This document shows, one piece after another, positions 28,063 to 35,913 of a DNA stretch of 64,000 nucleotides (within the stretch, counting starts at the first letter, position 1; the number at the start of each line of letters is the position of its first letter). Under the pieces are notes generated by a model, which saw only the letters and a program-made list of their open reading frames with translations, made no database searches and was not told the origin of the DNA. The translations under genes and the position numbers were made by a program. The stretch comes from Burkholderiales bacterium (lineage in GTDB: Bacteria; Pseudomonadota; Gammaproteobacteria; Burkholderiales; SG8-41), in NCBI GenBank assembly GCA_022841375.1, contig JALHRQ010000009.1, positions 1 through 64,000 on the forward strand, given 5' to 3'.

Positions 28063-29898
28063 TCAAGATGCTTTTTTCAATGGCACAACGCTGTGTGCGC
28101 TGATGTGTCTGGTGAGCTGGTCGACAATGAAACGTGCGGTGATCGGCGTGCCATCGAAGTGCAGCACCGAAATCAGCTGTGCGGGGTTGATCTTGGAATC
28201 GGTGACCAGCAGGGTTTTCAGCTGGGCGTCGCGGTTCTGCTCGATGACGAAGGTGCCCGAGTGCGCGGCGACAAAATCCTTGACCTGGTCGGCGAACGGG
28301 AAGCCGCGCACGCGCAACGCATTGATGTGAACGCCGTTTTCGGCGAGCACGTCCAGCGCTTCCTGCATCGCCGGGCTGGTTGAACCGTAATAGATCGCGC
28401 CGAAGCTCGCCGGTTTGGCGGCCTGGCGCAGCACCGGCTGGGGCAGCAGCGATTTCGCGGTTTCGAACTTGCGCATCAGCCGCTGCATATTATCGATGTA
28501 GTCAGGGCCGGCTTCGGAGTAGAGCGCGTAGCGGTTTTTTGTCGTGCCGCGGGTGAAATAGCCGCCCTTGGTCGGGTGGGTGCCGGGCAGCGTGCGGTAC
28601 GGAATACCGTCGCCGTCGACGTCAAGGTAACGGCCGAAATCAGCGCCGGCCTCGAGCTTCTCGTAGGTCATCAGCTTGCCGCGGTCATATTCCTTGCCGT
28701 CGTCCCATTTGAAGGGGCGGCACAGCCGCGTGTTCATGCCGATGTCGAGGTCGGTCATTACAAACACCGGCGTCTGCAGGCGTTCGGCGATGTCGAAGGA
28801 CTGCGCGGTCATTTCGAAACACTCAGTCGGATCTTCAGGGAACAGCAGCGGGTGTTTGGTGTCGCCGTGCGAAGCGTAGGCGCAGGCCAGCACATCGGAC
28901 TGCTGGGTGCGGGTCGGCATGCCGGTGGACGGGCCGCCGCGCTGCACGTCGACCAGCACCACGGGGATTTCCGCGAAATAAGCGAGGCCGATGAACTCGG
29001 TCATCAGCGAAATGCCGGGACCTGAAGTTGCGGTGAAGGAACGCGCGCCGTTCCAGCCGGCACCGATGGCGATGCCGATCGAAGCGAGTTCGTCTTCGCC
29101 CTGGATGATCGCGTATTTGTTTTTACCGGTCTCCGCATCGCCGCGCAATTTTTTGCAGAAGCCCATGAACGCTTCGGCCACCGATGACGACGGCGTGATC
29201 GGATACCAGGCGCAGACCGAAGCGCCACCGTAAACTGCACCCAGAGCCACGGCACTGTTGCCGTCGCTGAAAATCCGGTCGCCGACATTGTTTGCGGGCT
29301 TCAGGCGCAGGCCCAGCGGGCACGGCAGGTTTTTCAGTGCGTAATCGCGGCCAAGGTGCAGCGCCTTGACGTTGGACTGAAGCAGCGCTTCCTTGCCCTT
29401 GTATTGCTCCGAGAACAACTGTTCCAGGACCTTGGGGTCGATTTCGAGCAGGGCGGACAGCGCGCCGACGTAAATGATGTTCTTGAACAACTGGCGCTGG
29501 CGCGGATCGGTGTAGGTCGCGTTGCAGATTTCGGTCAGCGGCATGCCGATCAGCGTGATGTCATTGCGGAACTTGCTCTCGGGCAGCGGTTTGGAATTGT
29601 CATAGAACAGATAGCCGCCGGGACCGATTTCCTTGACGTCGTTGTCCCAGGTCTGCGGATTCATCGCCACCATCAGGTCGACACCACCGCGCCGGCCGAG
29701 ATAACCTTTTTCGGTGACGCGGACTTCATACCAGGTTGGCAGACCCTGGATGTTCGAGGGGAAGATGTTGCGCGGGCTCACCGGTACGCCCATGCGCAGG
29801 ATGGAACGCGCGAACAGTTCATTGGCCGAAGCGGAGCCCGAGCCGTTGACGTTGGCGAACTTGACGACAAAATCGTTGATGGCGCTGATTTGATTCAT
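28063..29898 (-). CDS. korA: 2-Oxoacid (2-oxoglutarate):acceptor oxidoreductase, fused gamma-alpha subunit
   Basis: 611 residues. The gamma domain (about 1-190, with GSGSASANELFARSILRMG and GYLGRRGGVDLMVAMNP) is fused to the alpha pyrimidine-binding domain (about 210-600, with GNSAVALGAVYGGASVCAWYPITPSS, EDELASIGIAIGAGWNGARSFTATSGPGISLM and VQRGGPSTGMPTRTQQSD). This gamma-alpha fusion is the KorA layout. The start is 13 nt after the upstream flavoprotein gene. The YPITPSS motif and GPSTGMPT loop mark 2-oxoacid oxidoreductases; 2-oxoglutarate is the likeliest substrate, not proven by sequence alone. Confidence 0.9.
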   Translation of the reverse strand: MNQISAINDFVVKFANVNGSGSASANELFARSILRMGVPVSPRNIFPSNIQGLPTWYEVRVTEKGYLGRRGGVDLMVAMNPQTWDNDVKEIGPGGYLFYDNSKPLPESKFRNDITLIGMPLTEICNATYTDPRQRQLFKNIIYVGALSALLEIDPKVLEQLFSEQYKGKEALLQSNVKALHLGRDYALKNLPCPLGLRLKPANNVGDRIFSDGNSAVALGAVYGGASVCAWYPITPSSSVAEAFMGFCKKLRGDAETGKNKYAIIQGEDELASIGIAIGAGWNGARSFTATSGPGISLMTEFIGLAYFAEIPVVLVDVQRGGPSTGMPTRTQQSDVLACAYASHGDTKHPLLFPEDPTECFEMTAQSFDIAERLQTPVFVMTDLDIGMNTRLCRPFKWDDGKEYDRGKLMTYEKLEAGADFGRYLDVDGDGIPYRTLPGTHPTKGGYFTRGTTKNRYALYSEAGPDYIDNMQRLMRKFETAKSLLPQPVLRQAAKPASFGAIYYGSTSPAMQEALDVLAENGVHINALRVRGFPFADQVKDFVAAHSGTFVIEQNRDAQLKTLLVTDSKINPAQLISVLHFDGTPITARFIVDQLTRHISAHSVVPLKKAS

Positions 29899-29911: not shown

Positions 29912-31798
29912 TCAGGCAGCTTTGCGTTGGGGTTTGCGGCATCCGGGGCCGGCGTGGGTCATTTGAACGAGGTATTTCTGCATGTCCCAGGCGCCAGTCG
30001 GGCAGCGCTCGGCGCACAGGCCGCAGTGCAGGCAGACGTCTTCGTCCTTGGCCATGATGCGGCCGGTCATGCGCAGCGGTTCCGACGCGTAGATATCCTG
30101 GTCTGCATGCAGTGACGGCGCAGTCAGCCGCTTGCGGACGTCTGCCTCTTCGCCGTTTGGCGTGAAGGTGATGCAGTCCATCGGGCAGATGTCGACACAG
30201 GCGTCGCATTCAATGCATAGCCGCGGCGCGAACACCGTCTGCACGTCGCAATTCAGGCAGCGCTGGGCTTCGGCGAGGCCGGCCTTGGCATCAAAACCGA
30301 GTTCAACCTCGACCTTGATGTTTTTCAGTGTCAGCTTCTGGTCCTGCCAGGGCACCTTGTGGCGCAGCGAAGCAGACACGTCGTTGTCGTAGCTCCACTC
30401 GTGGATGCCCATTTTCTGCGACACCACGGCGACTGCCGGCAGCGGGCGGTCCTGCAGATCTTCGTTGTTCATCATCTTGTCGATCGACACCGCGACTTCG
30501 TGGCCGTGAGCAACCGCCCAGATGATGTTCTTCGGGCCGAAAGCCGCATCGCCGCCGAAAAACACTTTCGGATGGGTTGACTGGAATGTGATCTTGTCGA
30601 CCACCGGCATGTTCCATTTGTCGAATTCGAGACCGGCATCGCGCTCGATCCAGGGGAAGGCGTTTTCCTGGCCGATCGCCACCAGCACGTCGTCGCATTC
30701 AACAAACTGTTCCGGTTCGCCGGTGGGCACCAGGTTGCGGCGGCCCTTGGCGTCGTATTCGGCTTTGACCTTCTCGAAAGTCATGCCGGTGAGTTTGCCG
30801 TCCTTGACGGTGCACGACTTCGGCACCATGAAATTGAGAATGGGGATGCCTTCTTCGATGGCGTCCTCCTTTTCCCACGGGCTGGCTTTCATTTCCTCGT
30901 ATCCGGAGCGGACGATAACCTTGACGTCTTCGCCGCCGAGGCGTTTCGCCGAACGGCAGCAGTCCATTGCGGTGTTGCCGCCGCCGAGCACGATGACCTT
31001 CTTGCCGATCTTGTCGATGTGACCGAAGGAGACGCTGGCCAGCCAGTCGATACCGAGGTGAACGTTTTTTACTGCTTCCGCACGGCCGGGTACATCAAGG
31101 TCGCGGCCGCGCGGCGCACCGGTGCCGACAAATACCGCGTCGTAACCTTCGGCGATGATTTTTTTCAGGCTGTCCACGCGCTGACCGGTGCGCATGGTGA
31201 TGTTGCCGATGCCGGTGATGTAGCCGACTTCCTCATCGATGACCGCTTCCGGCAGACGGAAACGCGGCACCTGTGAGCGCATGAAGCCGCCGGCTTTCGG
31301 ATCGGATTCGTAAATCGTGATGTCGTAGCCCAGCGGTGCGAGGTCGCGCGCGACGGTCAGTGAAGCGGGGCCGCCGCCAATGCAGGCAATGCGTTTGCCG
31401 TTTTTCTGCTTCGGCGCTTTCGGCATGCGTGCCGCGACATCATCCTTGTTGTCGGCGGCGACGCGTTTGAGCCGGCAGATCGCCACCGGTTCGGCCTTCG
31501 GTCCGTCTTCATGCGCGGTCGGTTTGCGCATCTCGACGTTGCCTTCTTCGACACGACCGCGGCGGCACGCGGGTTCGCAGGGACGGTCGCAGGTGCGGCC
31601 GAGAATGCCGGGGAACACATTAGATTTCCAGTTGACCATGTAGGCATCGTCGTAACGGCCTGCGGCGATCAAACGGATGTATTCAGGGACGGGGGTGTGG
31701 GCCGGACAAGCCCACTGACAATCGACAACTTTGTGGAAGTAATCGGGGTTCGAGATATCAGTCGGCTTCAAAAAAGGCTCCTGCTGCAGTAGCGCCAC
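29912..31798 (-). CDS. GltD-like FAD/NAD(P) oxidoreductase with ferredoxin domains (third subunit of the kor enzyme)
   Basis: 628 residues. The N-terminal Fe-S region has CQWACPAHTPVPEYIRLIAAG and GRTCDRPCEPACRRG. The FAD domain has GGGPASLTVARDLAPLGYD, and the NAD(P) domain has VLGGGNTAMDCCRSAKRLGG. Two C-terminal [4Fe-4S] sets follow: CIECDACVDICPMDC and CLHCGLCAERCP. This is the layout of the electron-transfer subunit of 2-oxoglutarate:NADP+ oxidoreductases known from denitrifying Azoarcus/Thauera. It is the first gene of the operon, with a GTG start. It probably shuttles electrons between the cluster of KorAB and NAD(P). Confidence 0.85.
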   Translation of the reverse strand: MALLQQEPFLKPTDISNPDYFHKVVDCQWACPAHTPVPEYIRLIAAGRYDDAYMVNWKSNVFPGILGRTCDRPCEPACRRGRVEEGNVEMRKPTAHEDGPKAEPVAICRLKRVAADNKDDVAARMPKAPKQKNGKRIACIGGGPASLTVARDLAPLGYDITIYESDPKAGGFMRSQVPRFRLPEAVIDEEVGYITGIGNITMRTGQRVDSLKKIIAEGYDAVFVGTGAPRGRDLDVPGRAEAVKNVHLGIDWLASVSFGHIDKIGKKVIVLGGGNTAMDCCRSAKRLGGEDVKVIVRSGYEEMKASPWEKEDAIEEGIPILNFMVPKSCTVKDGKLTGMTFEKVKAEYDAKGRRNLVPTGEPEQFVECDDVLVAIGQENAFPWIERDAGLEFDKWNMPVVDKITFQSTHPKVFFGGDAAFGPKNIIWAVAHGHEVAVSIDKMMNNEDLQDRPLPAVAVVSQKMGIHEWSYDNDVSASLRHKVPWQDQKLTLKNIKVEVELGFDAKAGLAEAQRCLNCDVQTVFAPRLCIECDACVDICPMDCITFTPNGEEADVRKRLTAPSLHADQDIYASEPLRMTGRIMAKDEDVCLHCGLCAERCPTGAWDMQKYLVQMTHAGPGCRKPQRKAA

Positions 31799-31995: not shown

Positions 31996-33225
31996 TCAGG
32001 ATTCAGCCGTTTTGCCGTCAATCACGCGCAACGCAGGGCGTTGCGCCGGCGCCCGCAGCTCATGTTTGTCGGCGAACAGCAGGCACTGCGGCCCGATCTC
32101 TTCAATCGTATTGCAGCCCAGCAGTGCCATGTTGCGGTGAATTTCGTCGCGATAGATCTGCAGCGCCCGCGCCGCACCGGCTTCACCGCCAGCGGCCACG
32201 CCGTACAGTGTCGAGCGACCGACCATCACCGCGTTGGCGCCCAGCGCCAGCGCTTTGACCACATCGCTGCCGCGGCGAATGCCGCTATCCATGAAAATGG
32301 TCGCGCGTTTGCCCACGGCGTCGACGATTTCCGGCAGTACTTCGATCGGTGAGGCAATGCCGTCAAGGTTGCGGCCGCCGTGGTTGGAGACGTCGATGCC
32401 GTCTGCGCCGTGGTCGACTGCGGTGATCGCATCCTGCGGGTCGAGAATGCCTTTGACGATCAGTTTTCCCGGCCAGATCTTGCGCAAAGCATCGAGATCG
32501 GCCCAGCTGATCGAGTCGGTGCGCAGGCTCGAGCGGCCGACCGGACCCCTGGTCATCTTGGCCTTGGCTGCAGCGGGATAGTTGGCATACATCGGCATGC
32601 CGGTGGTGAGCAGGTAGCGTGCCATCACGCCCATCAGCCAGCGCGGGTGGGTGGCCATGTCCCACATGTTCTTCAGGCCGAAGCTGAACGGGATGGTGAA
32701 ACCGTTGCGCTGGTTGTATTCGCGATTGCCCGACGACACGCCGTCGACAGTGACGATGAGTGTTTTGTAACCTGCTGCTTTGGCTCGGTTGACCAGTTCG
32801 TGCGACATCGAGCGGTCCGGCCACAGGTAAAGCTGGAACCACAGGTCGCCACCGGCTTCGTCGGCAACGCGTTCCATTGCGGTGATCGATCCGGTGGCCA
32901 GGGTGAACGGGATACCGGCGGCGCGCGCCGCACGCGCCAGCGCGATCTCGCCTTCATGCCACAGCAGCCCGGCGACCCCGGTGGGGGCGATCACCAGCGG
33001 CATTTTGTATTTGACGCCGAACAGCGTGGTGTCCTGGGTACGTTTGGACACGTCGACAAAGGTGCGGGTGCGGAAGCGGATGCGGTCGAACACTTCGCGG
33101 TTGTTGCGCAGGGATACTTCATCCTCGGTGCCGCGATCGACGAATTCGAAAAACCCTTTGGGCACGCGCTTGAGCGCGATATCGCGCAAGTCGAATATGT
33201 TGTAGGCCTTCAGGTCGTCGCTCAT
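31996..33225 (-). CDS. FMN-dependent alpha-hydroxy-acid oxidase/dehydrogenase
   Basis: 409 residues, an LldD/glycolate-oxidase-type barrel. FMN-contacting APTGVAGLLWHEGEIALARAA and catalytic SNHGGRNLDGIASPIEVLPEI (His as base) are present, with LIVKGIL and IFMDSGIRRGSDVVKALALGANAVMVGR at the flavin-phosphate site. It oxidises an L-2-hydroxy acid to the 2-oxo acid; lactate, mandelate and glycolate are all possible. The start is 19 nt after the stop of the UGSC-partner gene, so it is the last gene of the TctC-UGSC operon. The oxo acid it makes could feed 2-oxoacid oxidoreductases, but this is speculative. Confidence 0.88.
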   Translation of the reverse strand: MSDDLKAYNIFDLRDIALKRVPKGFFEFVDRGTEDEVSLRNNREVFDRIRFRTRTFVDVSKRTQDTTLFGVKYKMPLVIAPTGVAGLLWHEGEIALARAARAAGIPFTLATGSITAMERVADEAGGDLWFQLYLWPDRSMSHELVNRAKAAGYKTLIVTVDGVSSGNREYNQRNGFTIPFSFGLKNMWDMATHPRWLMGVMARYLLTTGMPMYANYPAAAKAKMTRGPVGRSSLRTDSISWADLDALRKIWPGKLIVKGILDPQDAITAVDHGADGIDVSNHGGRNLDGIASPIEVLPEIVDAVGKRATIFMDSGIRRGSDVVKALALGANAVMVGRSTLYGVAAGGEAGAARALQIYRDEIHRNMALLGCNTIEEIGPQCLLFADKHELRAPAQRPALRVIDGKTAES

Positions 33226-33244: not shown

Positions 33245-34360
33245 TCAGTTGCGTTTGAAGTCGTGGAGGGATTTTGCCAGAGTACCGTCCGCCCGTTTCA
33301 GCACGCGCGTCGCGGCCCGGGTATTGCCGAACGTCGGCACGTATTGCGAATGTTTGCCGGCGCCGCCAGTGACAATGATCAGCAGGTCTTCCGGTTTGGC
33401 GCACATGCGCACCGGCGTGTCCAGCGCTGCGTCGGCATACTGGGCGGCCAGTTTGCGGCGGAAGCGCCGTTCGATGGTCTCCCTGGAAAAACGCGACAGC
33501 GGCAGGGTGGCATGCTTGAACAGCCATTGGCGCACATCGGCCTTGCTCATGCCGTCGTTGGCCACCGTGGCGGCGTGTTCGGGACCGAAAGCGAGCAGCG
33601 GCTGGCCGGCGTAGTAGGGGTTGTTGGAACCGGTGATGGTCATGGTGCCGGCGACCATGGTCAGTATGCCTTCGGCGTTGAGGCTTTCATGATCGTTGAC
33701 GTTGTGCGGACTTTCCGCCGCAATCACCGTGACTGCGCTGGATTCACGCGGAAAACCCAGCTCGACGTGCAGCGGATCCCAGGGGCTCTGCTCTTCGTTT
33801 TCGGCGACGCAGAAGGTGAACTTCGCCGGGGTGCCGGTGGTGGCCATGTCGCCGGTGCCGGGAATCGCTGCGCCGATGTTGACCAGCGCCAGGCGCACCG
33901 CGCGGCCGATCACGGCGTTGGCGCGGAAGTAGTTGCCCATTGCGTTCTGCCCGGCATTGATGCCCGCTTCTTTGGCCGCAGGGCCATTGAAGATCAGCAT
34001 GGGCGTGCAGGGATGCGTCGTCGCCTGCGTGCCGTAAAGGTTGTACTGCTCGTCGGCCAGTGCTTCCAGCGCCAGCAACACCAGCGGGAAATATTCGGGT
34101 TTGCAGCCAGCCATCACCGCGTTGGCGGCAATACGGATCGGCGTCGCTGCGCCGAAACGCGGCGGGATGTTCAGCACCGGCTTGTCAAGGTCGCGGTCGC
34201 AGTACGCGAGCATGCGTTCGACGCGCTCGGCGGTGGGCGGGATCACCGGCAGGCCGTCGCTCCAGCCCTTGCTGCACATCAGTTCAAAGACGGCTTCGGG
34301 ATCGTCGTCGCAGGCGATCAGCGCACCGGGTGTCTGCAGCATTGTAGTGAGCTTGCTCAT
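33245..34360 (-). CDS. Conserved partner of the UGSC selenoprotein, function unknown
   Basis: 371 residues, no membrane segment or signal peptide. I recognise a conserved family but know no activity for it. Typical stretches are SKGWSDGLPVIPPTAERVERML, PRFGAATPIRIAANAVMAGCKPEYFPLVLLALEAL, ATTHPCTPMLIFNGPAA and ITGSNNPYYAGQPLLAFGPEHA. Conserved-looking cysteines lie in AGCKPEYF and THPCTPM. Its ATG overlaps the TGA of the upstream selenoprotein (ATGA), so translation is coupled and the two proteins probably work together, perhaps in thiol/selenol chemistry. A role as an enzyme subunit is an inference. Confidence 0.7.
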   Translation of the reverse strand: MSKLTTMLQTPGALIACDDDPEAVFELMCSKGWSDGLPVIPPTAERVERMLAYCDRDLDKPVLNIPPRFGAATPIRIAANAVMAGCKPEYFPLVLLALEALADEQYNLYGTQATTHPCTPMLIFNGPAAKEAGINAGQNAMGNYFRANAVIGRAVRLALVNIGAAIPGTGDMATTGTPAKFTFCVAENEEQSPWDPLHVELGFPRESSAVTVIAAESPHNVNDHESLNAEGILTMVAGTMTITGSNNPYYAGQPLLAFGPEHAATVANDGMSKADVRQWLFKHATLPLSRFSRETIERRFRRKLAAQYADAALDTPVRMCAKPEDLLIIVTGGAGKHSQYVPTFGNTRAATRVLKRADGTLAKSLHDFKRN

Positions 34361-34902
34361 GCCTGCTTTTCCTTGATCGCCTTGATTGCACGGATCAGTT
34401 GCGGCAGTGCCACGTCAGCGCGCTCGCGTACTTTGTCCATGCTTAACCCGCCCAGCGGGTGTTTGATTTCCAGCAGCGGCAGGTCGGGCACGCCAAACAC
34501 CTTGGCCTGTGCGTTGCCCAGTTTCATGAAGGTATCGGAACAGATCACGGCAGTGATCAGCCCGCGTTTTCTCAGTTGCGCCATGTCGTGGACACTCCAC
34601 GACGTGCATGACCCTCAATCGGCCATGGCACTGACAACGAGGTCGGCCTCCTTTGCCAGTTGATCGAGGATGGCGTCGGTTGCGGGGCGGCTGGAAGCGG
34701 CTTTGCGCGTCATCACCACCGAATCCACCTTGAACTCCTTTTTCACGCCTTCGATGATCATGTTCAGCAGGTGATCGGCATTGCCCTTGGTGTTATCGAG
34801 GATGCCGAGGCGGATGCCGGTCTCGCCAAGCTGGCGGTTGGCATCGAGTTGCGCGACGTTTTCGATCGGCGCATCGGGTACTACGAGAAATATCTGTCCC
34901 AT
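34357..34902 (-). CDS. UGSC-family selenoprotein with in-frame UGA (Sec)
   Basis: Read through one UGA at 34615-34617, this is a single 181-residue protein with selenocysteine at residue 96 in the motif D-U-G-S-C-T-S-W-S-V-H-D, the UGSC family signature. Upstream are LGILDNTKGNADHLL and LAKEADLVVSAMAD; downstream are RGLITAVICSDTFMKLGNAQAKVFGVPDLPLLEIKHPLGGLS. Both halves are in the same frame and match the family on either side. A strong AGGAG lies 6 nt before ATG 34902. A SECIS-like hairpin begins 11 nt after the UGA. Redox chemistry at the U-x-x-C motif is likely; the substrate is unknown. The selenocysteine machinery genes (selA-D) are not in this window. Confidence 0.9.
34585..34603 (-). 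promoter_or_regulatory. Bacterial SECIS-like hairpin for Sec insertion
   Basis: On the minus strand GTCGTGG-AGTGT-CCACGAC forms a perfect 7-bp stem with a 5-nt loop. The stem starts 11 nt after the UGA and the loop starts 18 nt after it, within the 16-37 nt window of bacterial SECIS models. A G occurs in the first two loop positions (AG), as those models require. E. coli fdhF has the same 11-nt spacing. The codons here also encode conserved SWSVHD, so the element overlaps coding constraint. Confidence 0.8.
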
Positions 34903-34953
34903 CTGTTTCTCCTGGTCATCCTTGTTGTCGCGGGAGACATCCCGCATTCGGAC

Positions 34954-35913
34954 TTAATTGACTTTGATGCCAGCAGCCTTGAACACCGGTGGCCATTTTT
35001 GCAGTTCTTTTTTGACGAATTCGGTGAATGGGTCAGGGCCCAGCGCAACCGGATCGAAGCCGCTGGCTTCCATCTGTGCGTTGACATCCGGCAGTTTGCT
35101 GATACGCGCCATTTCGGCGTGCAACCGATCAACGATGGGGCGCGGCGTTTTGCCGGGCGCCAGAACGCCGTAAAAACCTTCCACGGCATAACCGGGCAAT
35201 CCGGCTTCGGCCACCGTCGGTACATCAGGCAAAGCTTTGACGCGGGCTTCCGAACCCACGGCAATCGCCCGCAGCCGCCCGGATTTCAGGAACGGGATCG
35301 CCGCACCCGGCGCAGTCATCAGCATGTGCACCTGACCGCTGACCACCGCTGCGGTCGAATCGCCCGCGCCCTTGTATGGCACATGAACCATCTGGATGCC
35401 CGCCATGTGTTTGAGCAGTTCAATCGACAGATGGCCGCCGGTGCCGGCGCCCGATGAAGCGTAATTCAGATCACCGGGGCGCGACTTGGCCAGCGTGATC
35501 AGCTGCTTCACGGTTTTCACCGGCAGCGAAGGATGCACGACCAGCACGTTGGGCGAGTAGGCGAGCAGCGTGATGCGCGCAAAATCATTCAGCGTGTCGT
35601 ATGGCAGCGTTGCGTACAGGCTTGGATTAAGCGCGTAACCGGTGGCGACGATCAGCAGCGTGTATCCGTCGGGCGGCGCCTTGGCGACGATTTCCGAACC
35701 GACGATGCCGGCTGCGCCCGGACGCAGATCAACGATGACCTGCTGTCCCCAGTTCTGCGTCATCTTGGCGCCGAACAGGCGGGCGAGCTGATCATTGCCG
35801 CCGCCCGCGGAAGAGGGCACAACCCAGCGGATGGGTTTGGCCGGAAAGGTTTGCGCAAACGAGGTCGATGCGGCAAGAGCCAGCGCCACGGCGATGGTCA
35901 GAACTGACTTCAA
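34954..35913 (-). CDS. TctC/Bug-family periplasmic substrate-binding protein
   Basis: 319 residues. A signal peptide (MKSVLTIAVALALAASTSFA) is followed by the Bug fold: PAKPIRWVVPSSAGGGNDQLAR, LRPGAAGIVGSEIVAKAPPDGYTLL, SSGAGTGGHLSIELLKHMAG and the pocket motif YKGAGDSTAAVVSGQV. These receptors bind carboxylates for tripartite tricarboxylate transporters, but no tctA/tctB genes are present, so it is an orphan receptor as is usual in Burkholderiales. First gene of the operon, 51 nt ahead of the UGSC gene. The cargo could be the acid the downstream enzymes act on. Confidence 0.9.
   Translation of the reverse strand: MKSVLTIAVALALAASTSFAQTFPAKPIRWVVPSSAGGGNDQLARLFGAKMTQNWGQQVIVDLRPGAAGIVGSEIVAKAPPDGYTLLIVATGYALNPSLYATLPYDTLNDFARITLLAYSPNVLVVHPSLPVKTVKQLITLAKSRPGDLNYASSGAGTGGHLSIELLKHMAGIQMVHVPYKGAGDSTAAVVSGQVHMLMTAPGAAIPFLKSGRLRAIAVGSEARVKALPDVPTVAEAGLPGYAVEGFYGVLAPGKTPRPIVDRLHAEMARISKLPDVNAQMEASGFDPVALGPDPFTEFVKKELQKWPPVFKAAGIKVN

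Follow-up and report, generated by a model that had tools for sequence, protein, structure and literature searches.

The 64,000-nucleotide window analysed here (positions 1 to 64,000 of the forward strand of contig JALHRQ010000009.1, assembly GCA_022841375.1, from a Burkholderiales bacterium of the GTDB group SG8-41) very probably carries on its minus strand an intact selenoprotein gene, a further member of the known UGSC family, directly followed by a second gene, here called the partner, with which it most probably forms a two-subunit enzyme. The UGSC gene runs in a single register (34902-34357) for 181 codons, from an ATG at 34902-34900 to the final stop at 34359-34357, with a UGA at codon 96 (34617-34615) as its sole interruption, and translation of the plus strand of the locus yields no such protein. 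The original prediction, which had joined two frames parted by a UGA into one 181-residue protein with selenocysteine (Sec) at residue 96 of a D-U-G-S-C-T-S-W motif and a ribosome-binding site upstream, is thus borne out; its coordinates were right as well, though it gave no strand. The active-site motif reads MAD-U-GSCTSWSVHD, so that the family's [U/C]-G-x-C signature is present as U96-G-S-C99. Without recoding, the gene breaks in two: a first frame that spans 110 aa counted from an ATG further upstream, or 95 aa counted from 34902, and a second of 75 aa that begins at an internal Met. This is the 95 + 75 split that had been foreseen, and gene callers that stop at UGA truncate UGSC genes in this way. 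Read through, the protein belongs to the family to which it had been assigned, scoring 134.7 bits on NF041046 (UGSC_fam; cut-off 125) and 157 bits on PF24696 (Pfam UGSC; cut-off 25), and both matches span the UGA.

We regard it as almost certain that UGA96 encodes selenocysteine. The window's genome contains all four of the genes on which the original prediction had made its selenocysteine depend, namely selC, which encodes tRNA-Sec (75.9 bits), selA (576.8 bits), selB (421.5 bits) and selD (419.3 bits), the first three of them (selC, selB and selA) grouped on contig 3. The selD gene carries one in-frame TGA of its own (G000:C15:11228-12157, locus L013), and selenophosphate synthetase is therefore probably a selenoprotein itself. 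In five hand-picked close homologues (L095, L096, L126, L097 and L104) a UGA faces the UGA of the window gene in every case, and the ratio of nonsynonymous to synonymous substitution rates (dN/dS), with 1-2 codons beyond the stop included for two of the five, is 0.08, 0.12, 0.26, 0.32 and 0.15 behind the UGA, respectively, and 0.20, 0.28, 0.43, 0.34 and 0.35 before it. The values of 0.08-0.32 behind the UGA indicate that the second half of UGSC is under purifying selection as protein, and the window gene, which had been called intact, shows no sign of decay. Behind the UGA we also found a putative bacterial selenocysteine insertion sequence (SECIS) hairpin. When folding was applied to every UGSC hit whose motif could be recognised and was followed by 60 nt, the predicted apical loop was centred exactly 21 nt past the UGA in 96 of 101 UGA-type genes, the window gene included, vs 3 of 15 Cys-type genes, with mean folding z-scores against synonymous shuffles of -1.49 and -0.33, respectively; an Rfam scan of the window at gathering scores gave no match.

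The distribution of tRNA-Sec follows that of UGSC. Among 61 genomes, comprising the window's own and its relatives, a tRNA-Sec above 70 bits occurs in 38 of 40 with UGSC, the exceptions being G307 and G327, vs 5 of 21 without (Fisher P = 1.2e-8), where the line at 70 bits is our own choice within a gap from 70.7 to 49.7 bits, and 49 of the 61 would pass the Rfam cut-off of 47. In Blastococcus sp. CT_GayMR19, TAG takes the place of TGA exactly at the UGSC active-site codon (L160:9732-9734), and passages of PMC5330540 report tRNA-Sec(CUA) together with UGSC-motif selenoproteins that have the matching codon in Geodermatophilaceae. Because of the Sec machinery, the purifying selection behind the UGA and the common hairpin loop, UGSC is very probably a genuine selenoprotein gene, and the sequence evidence gives good support to the prediction that UGA96 is read with the genome's own SelA, SelB, SelC and SelD and the hairpin behind the UGA.

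To compare the active site across the family we aligned UGSC hits after removing those shorter than 150 aa, those containing several U residues and finally near-duplicates, which took 111 sequences to 101 (the corresponding partner alignment, leaving out hits shorter than 300 aa or containing U and then near-duplicates, went from 130 to 108); reduced versions without the annotated-plasmid rows and certain other-genome rows hold 88 of the 101 UGSC and 92 of the 108 partner sequences. Residue 96 is Sec or Cys in 101 of 101 members, the alignment writing U as C, as the original prediction would have it, and Cys99 is invariant. Three sequences from outside the aligned set stand apart. Two are plasmid-borne UGSC-partner fusions from Sporomusa and Vibrio (L086:6350-8074 and L087:6338-8023), which have D-M-G-T-S vs D-U-G-S-C, lie near aconitase X and DUF126 genes, and are read here as a non-selenol branch; the third is a distant Cys-type hit (L042; G277:C6:12789-13246) that lies in two frames with a TGA elsewhere and seems frameshifted or decayed. 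On plasmid pFER4 of Paracoccus ferrooxidans a Sec-type UGSC gene (L091:5435-6004) is annotated as two hypothetical proteins, and this plasmid also carries selB, at a distance of about 4 kb.

The partner gene, which like the paralogues and the GrdB/PrdB relationship described below was missing from the original prediction, overlaps the UGSC stop with its start codon by 4 nt (ATGA, 34360-34357), like the genes of coupled operons. Its product has no match in Pfam or NCBIfam, and among its 108 relatives nothing convincing was found. The window's genome has 11 UGSC genes, each with one TGA at the motif, and 13 partner copies; each of the 11 UGSC genes has a partner at most 400 bp away in the same orientation, two of them as natural fusions (567 and 576 aa), and the two surplus partners, which have no adjacent UGSC, lie on contigs 3 and 21 (L046 = G000:C3:156239-157270; L038:7076-8125). 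The partner was likewise found in all 13 plasmid records with a UGSC match. A scan of genome contigs with the partner profile, in which UGSC was not used as query and 80 loci were kept of at least 588 pattern matches, showed that 90 of 110 partner hits have a UGSC in the same orientation no more than 400 bp away. Three of the 80 loci have no UGSC at all (L109, L116 and L147, of which L116 ends at a contig edge), and the remaining partner hits that lack UGSC are fragments, second partners in a tandem, or hits for which UGSC is more distant or absent. The 95 UGSC hits in these loci have TGA in 87 cases and Cys in 5, with 3 unresolved, of which two are the halves of the TAG gene of Blastococcus and the third belongs to a gene already counted through its other half (L146). 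As labelled, the 80 loci come from Betaproteobacteria, Rokubacteria, Chloroflexota/SAR202, Binatia, Nitrospinae, Alphaproteobacteria, haloarchaea, Actinomycetota, Bacillus and others.

The two proteins have also diversified together. Distances among UGSC paralogues correlate with those among their partners in the window's genome (r = 0.84, permutation P = 0.0002, 11 pairs), and since all 11 pairs come from one genome this correlation is no species-tree effect; across 84 pairs from the genome-contig loci, r = 0.87. Judged from the sequences, this pairing, fusion and co-diversification make it highly likely that UGSC and its partner are the two subunits of one enzyme unit. A fusion of UGSC to a domain named 'Unknown_1' is noted in the 2008 description of the family, in a passage of PMC2398784; our tentative reading is that Unknown_1 is the partner. 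At five loci (L145, L151, L155, L158 and L165) two partner-like genes in tandem come after UGSC; the second of them is shorter or diverges more, and the arrangement may be a variant of three genes.

Profile comparisons suggest that UGSC is related to the GrdB family yet stands outside it, its kinship being a remote one with the domain of GrdB and PrdB that carries selenocysteine. At E <= 1, 53 of 101 UGSC members match the NCBIfam model TIGR01917 (glycine reductase selenoprotein B), with a best E of 2.2e-6, and further matches are to GrdF (21 members), TIGR01918 (17), PrdB (15, best 4.1e-5) and GrdH (14), the next family after the Grd/Prd models being matched by 6; when ten members were scanned singly, six matched at least one Grd/Prd model and four none. 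The window protein scores 13.3 bits on TIGR01917, below the family cut-off of 602.2, and has no match to PF07355 at E <= 10. Its residues 67-162 align to TIGR01917 positions 318-407, placing Sec96 by ungapped offset at about position 347, which we take to be GrdB's own Sec position. Alignment by hhalign of UGSC with five PF07355-type proteins, which are all the matches (weak ones) in 299 genomes of the phylum and have the motifs CPVC or CPIC, gave P = 4.9e-4 with CGSC over CPVC, and the control alignment of the partner with the same five gave P = 0.5.

What UGSC shares with GrdB, GrdF and GrdH of glycine, sarcosine and betaine reductase (PF07355, TIGR01917) is a remote similarity over the UxxC segment. 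It differs in size (181 aa vs the 431 positions of TIGR01917), in falling far under the family cut-offs, and in that GrdB systems have a GrdE pyruvoyl subunit, which the UGSC partner is not recognisable as; the nearest UGSC loci, moreover, are labelled Betaproteobacteria and not Stickland fermenters. PrdB, the selenoprotein of D-proline reductase, is a small Sec subunit with a UxxC motif that works with a second subunit. Its matches to UGSC members (TIGR04483, a 238-position model) are weak, and the partner matches no PrdA model. The partner was considered as a GrdE/PrdA-type pyruvoyl subunit and rejected, as 0 of 108 partner proteins match such a model in Pfam or NCBIfam at E <= 1, a result that still allows distant homology.

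In the AlphaFold2 model (88 sequences, pLDDT 95.1), UGSC is predicted to adopt an alternating beta-alpha, flavodoxin/Rossmann-like fold in which Sec96 directly precedes helix 97-112. Among the best 50 of 1826 Foldseek matches are flavodoxin-like and other alpha/beta proteins, with query-normalised TM scores of at most 0.53, and none is named thioredoxin. The thioredoxin-like (Trx-like) fold proposed for UGSC in 2008 is accordingly not supported by the model, both its topology and the Foldseek matches listed speaking against it. For the partner model (pLDDT 95.9), none of the 50 Foldseek matches listed is a close relative of solved structure; the top ones are fumarate hydratases at a query-normalised TM of about 0.24, and assignments of the partner as a fumarate hydratase or a Toblerone amidohydrolase were set aside on such weak matches (query-normalised TM at most 0.27 among the 50). 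A search by sequence for relatives of solved structure gave none that was convincing.

UGSC is present in 37 of 37 genomes searched of the window's bacterial family and in 4 of 299 across the phylum, its own genome included. The unit has multiplied within this family, and one relative, the draft genome G319 (5.7 Mb, 98% complete, 2% contaminated), has 58 UGSC matches, 57 of them above cut-off, and 62 partner matches. Taking two matches on contig C7 as one leaves 57 regions, of which 53 carry UGA in U-G-[S/G/A/T]-C and 46 of these 53 have the loop at 21 nt; the 53 include one with an additional TAG (L211) and two shorter than 120 aa, a match on C45 also shows TAA, and the other four regions comprise one U-E-S-C with TAG and three without UGA at the site. 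No pair of the 53 UGA-type copies reaches 90% identity (highest 75%, median 27%), which rules out strain duplicates as the source of this count. One family alone thus reaches 53 UGA-type copies in a draft genome, compared with whole-genome maxima of 57 and 63 genes for bacterial selenoprotein sets, as given in part of a 2026 review (PMC13188914); an expansion like that of G319 may already have been printed in the groundwater survey behind the figure 63. In the selenoprotein table of a 2016 survey of >5200 genomes (PMC5029168), UGSC appears with the numbers 26 and 33, which we read as organisms and genes.

The genes around the window's unit are listed in Table 1. Receptors of tripartite tricarboxylate transporters (TctC/Bug), one of which lies upstream of UGSC, are the commonest neighbour family overall, with 70 genes at 30 of 108 loci, 23 of them within 300 bp on the same strand; in the window's genome 14 TctC genes lie within 5 kb of units (112.6 kb in all) vs 6 in 162 kb elsewhere, the control stretches being those at hand and not random ones. 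Other neighbours belong to organic-acid catabolism, namely CoA-transferase, MmgE/PrpD, enolase-superfamily, fumarylacetoacetate hydrolase (FAH), and 2-hydroxyacid and ketopantoate dehydrogenase genes; a hydroxyisobutyrate dehydrogenase gene stands beside a partner-only copy. Thioredoxin-system genes occur near units as trxA and trxB with the Cys-type unit of Arthrobacter and as trxB in Roseovarius and Variovorax sp. SRS16, and six further loci have TrxB-like or FAD oxidoreductases, three TrxB-like flavoproteins lying 13 bp from their units. We dropped a functional operon of the UGSC unit with the downstream dehydrogenase and oxoacid oxidoreductase, which matched nothing beside 24 loci, and list these genes as context only. 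Genes of the phosphosulfolactate synthase family occur close to the UGSC unit on one haloarchaeal and one Arthrobacter plasmid (L082 and L085).

Table 1. Features of the UGSC locus and its surroundings, in coordinates of the window
Feature	Position	Strand	Basis or remark
UGSC-family selenoprotein gene, very probably intact; 181 codons + stop, Sec96, Cys99 (UxxC)	34357..34902	minus	profile matches, alignment, dN/dS
In-frame UGA almost certainly read as selenocysteine, codon 96	34615..34617	minus	UGA opposite UGA in 5 homologues; TGA in 11/11 own-genome UGSC genes
Putative SECIS hairpin of bacterial type; stem of 8 bp, GUG loop with its centre 21 nt past UGA	34585..34603	minus	loop position conserved; own z -0.62
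Ribosome-binding site AGGAG, 6 nt ahead of ATG	34909..34913	minus	sequence
Partner gene, 371 aa, near-invariant Cys86 (MAGCxPEY)	33245..34360	minus	no Pfam/NCBIfam match; ATGA overlap with UGSC stop
Tripartite tricarboxylate transporter receptor (TctC/Bug), 51 bp upstream of UGSC	34954..35913	minus	PF03401 230.7 bits
FMN-dependent dehydrogenase (lactate dehydrogenase-like), 19 bp downstream of partner	31996..33225	minus	PF01070 452 bits; link not conserved
GltD-like NAD(P)-binding protein with 4Fe-4S domain	29912..31798	minus	profile match; link not conserved
2-oxoacid:acceptor oxidoreductase subunit alpha	28063..29898	minus	TIGR03710 565.5 bits (cut-off 482.75); link not conserved

Our favoured explanation, which we hold to be somewhat probable as a whole, is that UGSC/partner units are thiol-fed selenol reductases with differing organic-acid substrates. 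UGSC would present its selenolate where a helix begins (U96-G-S-C99) and the partner would bind and orient a small carboxylate; attack of the selenolate on this substrate would lead to reductive cleavage of a carbon-heteroatom bond, Cys99 would resolve the intermediate as a selenosulfide, and a dithiol system like thioredoxin and thioredoxin reductase would re-reduce UGSC. Different paralogues may serve different substrates, often brought by tripartite tricarboxylate (TTT), TRAP or ABC uptake systems. The thioredoxin-system neighbours hint at the reductant, and the TctC receptors near the units at the uptake. The analogy that this draws on is the chemistry of GrdB and PrdB, as set out in part of PMC10298544, and the proposed fluoroacetate reductase FarB/FarE of Synergistota, for which passages of PMC10838667 describe GrdB-like paralogues specialised to a new substrate and several selenoprotein B genes per genome; it suggests that selenoproteins of this kind can be redirected to other substrates. 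FarB and FarE differ from the UGSC unit in being true GrdB/GrdE homologues, with eight grdB genes there vs the 53 UGA-type UGSC copies of G319. For GrdB/PrdB-like reductive chemistry in the UGSC unit itself we see about even chances.

Several observations weigh against this explanation. The hairpin of the window gene, taken alone, is not unusually stable (z -0.62). As to kinship, 48 of the 101 UGSC members have no TIGR01917 match even at E <= 1, the highest TIGR01917 score among the 11 members with single scores listed is 21.2 bits, against a cut-off of 602, and the HH probability of the alignment with PF07355-type proteins is just 32%. The partner matches no GrdE/PrdA model, and substrate activation must therefore differ. 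In the active site, an unaligned UGA-type fragment (L144:20679-21002) has U-G-S-S, with Ser instead of the resolving Cys99, and the two Sporomusa and Vibrio fusions have Met at the Sec position. The FMN dehydrogenase, GltD-like and oxoacid oxidoreductase genes are absent beside the 24 UGSC/partner loci searched (9 in the window's own genome and 15 in others). TrxB-like neighbours occur at 9 of 108 loci, and at one of these the gene is 2.7 kb off and points the other way; the count has no matched control and is a lower bound, the open reading frame list having overlooked at least 3 of the nine.

The alternative that fares best, though we think it unlikely, is a covalent but non-redox catalyst, an isomerase, hydratase or lyase whose selenolate would add reversibly to an unsaturated or activated acid, with Cys99 having a structural role. 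The MmgE/PrpD, enolase-superfamily and FAH proteins among the neighbours fit such an enzyme, as do the Met-for-Sec fusions beside aconitase X genes and the fumarate hydratases at the head of the partner's fold matches, but the TM of these matches is low, and the invariance of Cys99 in the 101 aligned members (Ser in the unaligned L144), the thioredoxin-reductase-type neighbours and the kinship with the reductases GrdB and PrdB all speak against it. A generic thiol-disulfide oxidoreductase of thioredoxin-like fold, following the reading of Zhang and Gladyshev (2008), would use UxxC to reduce protein or small-molecule disulfides with the partner as client or oxidase; the UxxC motif and the thioredoxin-reductase neighbours are consistent with this, but the flavodoxin/Rossmann-like model, with no named thioredoxin in the 50 Foldseek matches listed, is not, and the many paralogues beside uptake receptors suggest varied substrates and not general redox upkeep, so that we consider it quite improbable. 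That the UGA is a true stop in a decayed gene, as the two-protein annotation of the UGA-split pFER4 relative might suggest, is ruled out for practical purposes by the dN/dS behind the UGA and by the constancy of TGA at one codon (11 of 11 paralogues and 87 of 95 genome-contig hits), in a genome with complete Sec machinery.

The UGSC family and its fusion are already known. The window gene shares with the family (NF041046/PF24696) a match over most of its length, the UGSC motif, Sec and Cys homologues and fusion to a second domain; the relevant passages of PMC2398784 treat the family as one protein, functionally uncharacterised and probably Trx-folded, whereas the system described here is a two-gene unit with a flavodoxin-like model, GrdB/PrdB kinship and large paralogue sets. 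The passages on UGSC consulted in open-licence papers mention neither kinship with GrdB/PrdB nor an obligate partner nor an expansion of UGSC paralogues.

With selenol-dependent reduction as the preferred reading, we can tentatively go one step further. UGSC and its partner could constitute an unrecognised superfamily of selenol-dependent reductive lyases that shares an ancestor with the anaerobic glycine and proline reductases, has a different substrate-binding subunit, has radiated in uncultured Betaproteobacteria (several of them labelled as coming from lakes and groundwater) and is also present in Rokubacteria, SAR202 and others, giving some cells dozens of substrate-specific enzymes. Naming the near-obligate partner and the likely relatives of UGSC turns the family into a directly testable two-protein enzyme, and to judge from the numbers of paralogues, much of the organic-acid chemistry of some uncultured bacteria may depend on selenium. 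If this is true, few known organisms would use more selenocysteine than such bacteria, and the part that selenium plays in breaking down dissolved organic acids would be large and so far unrecorded.

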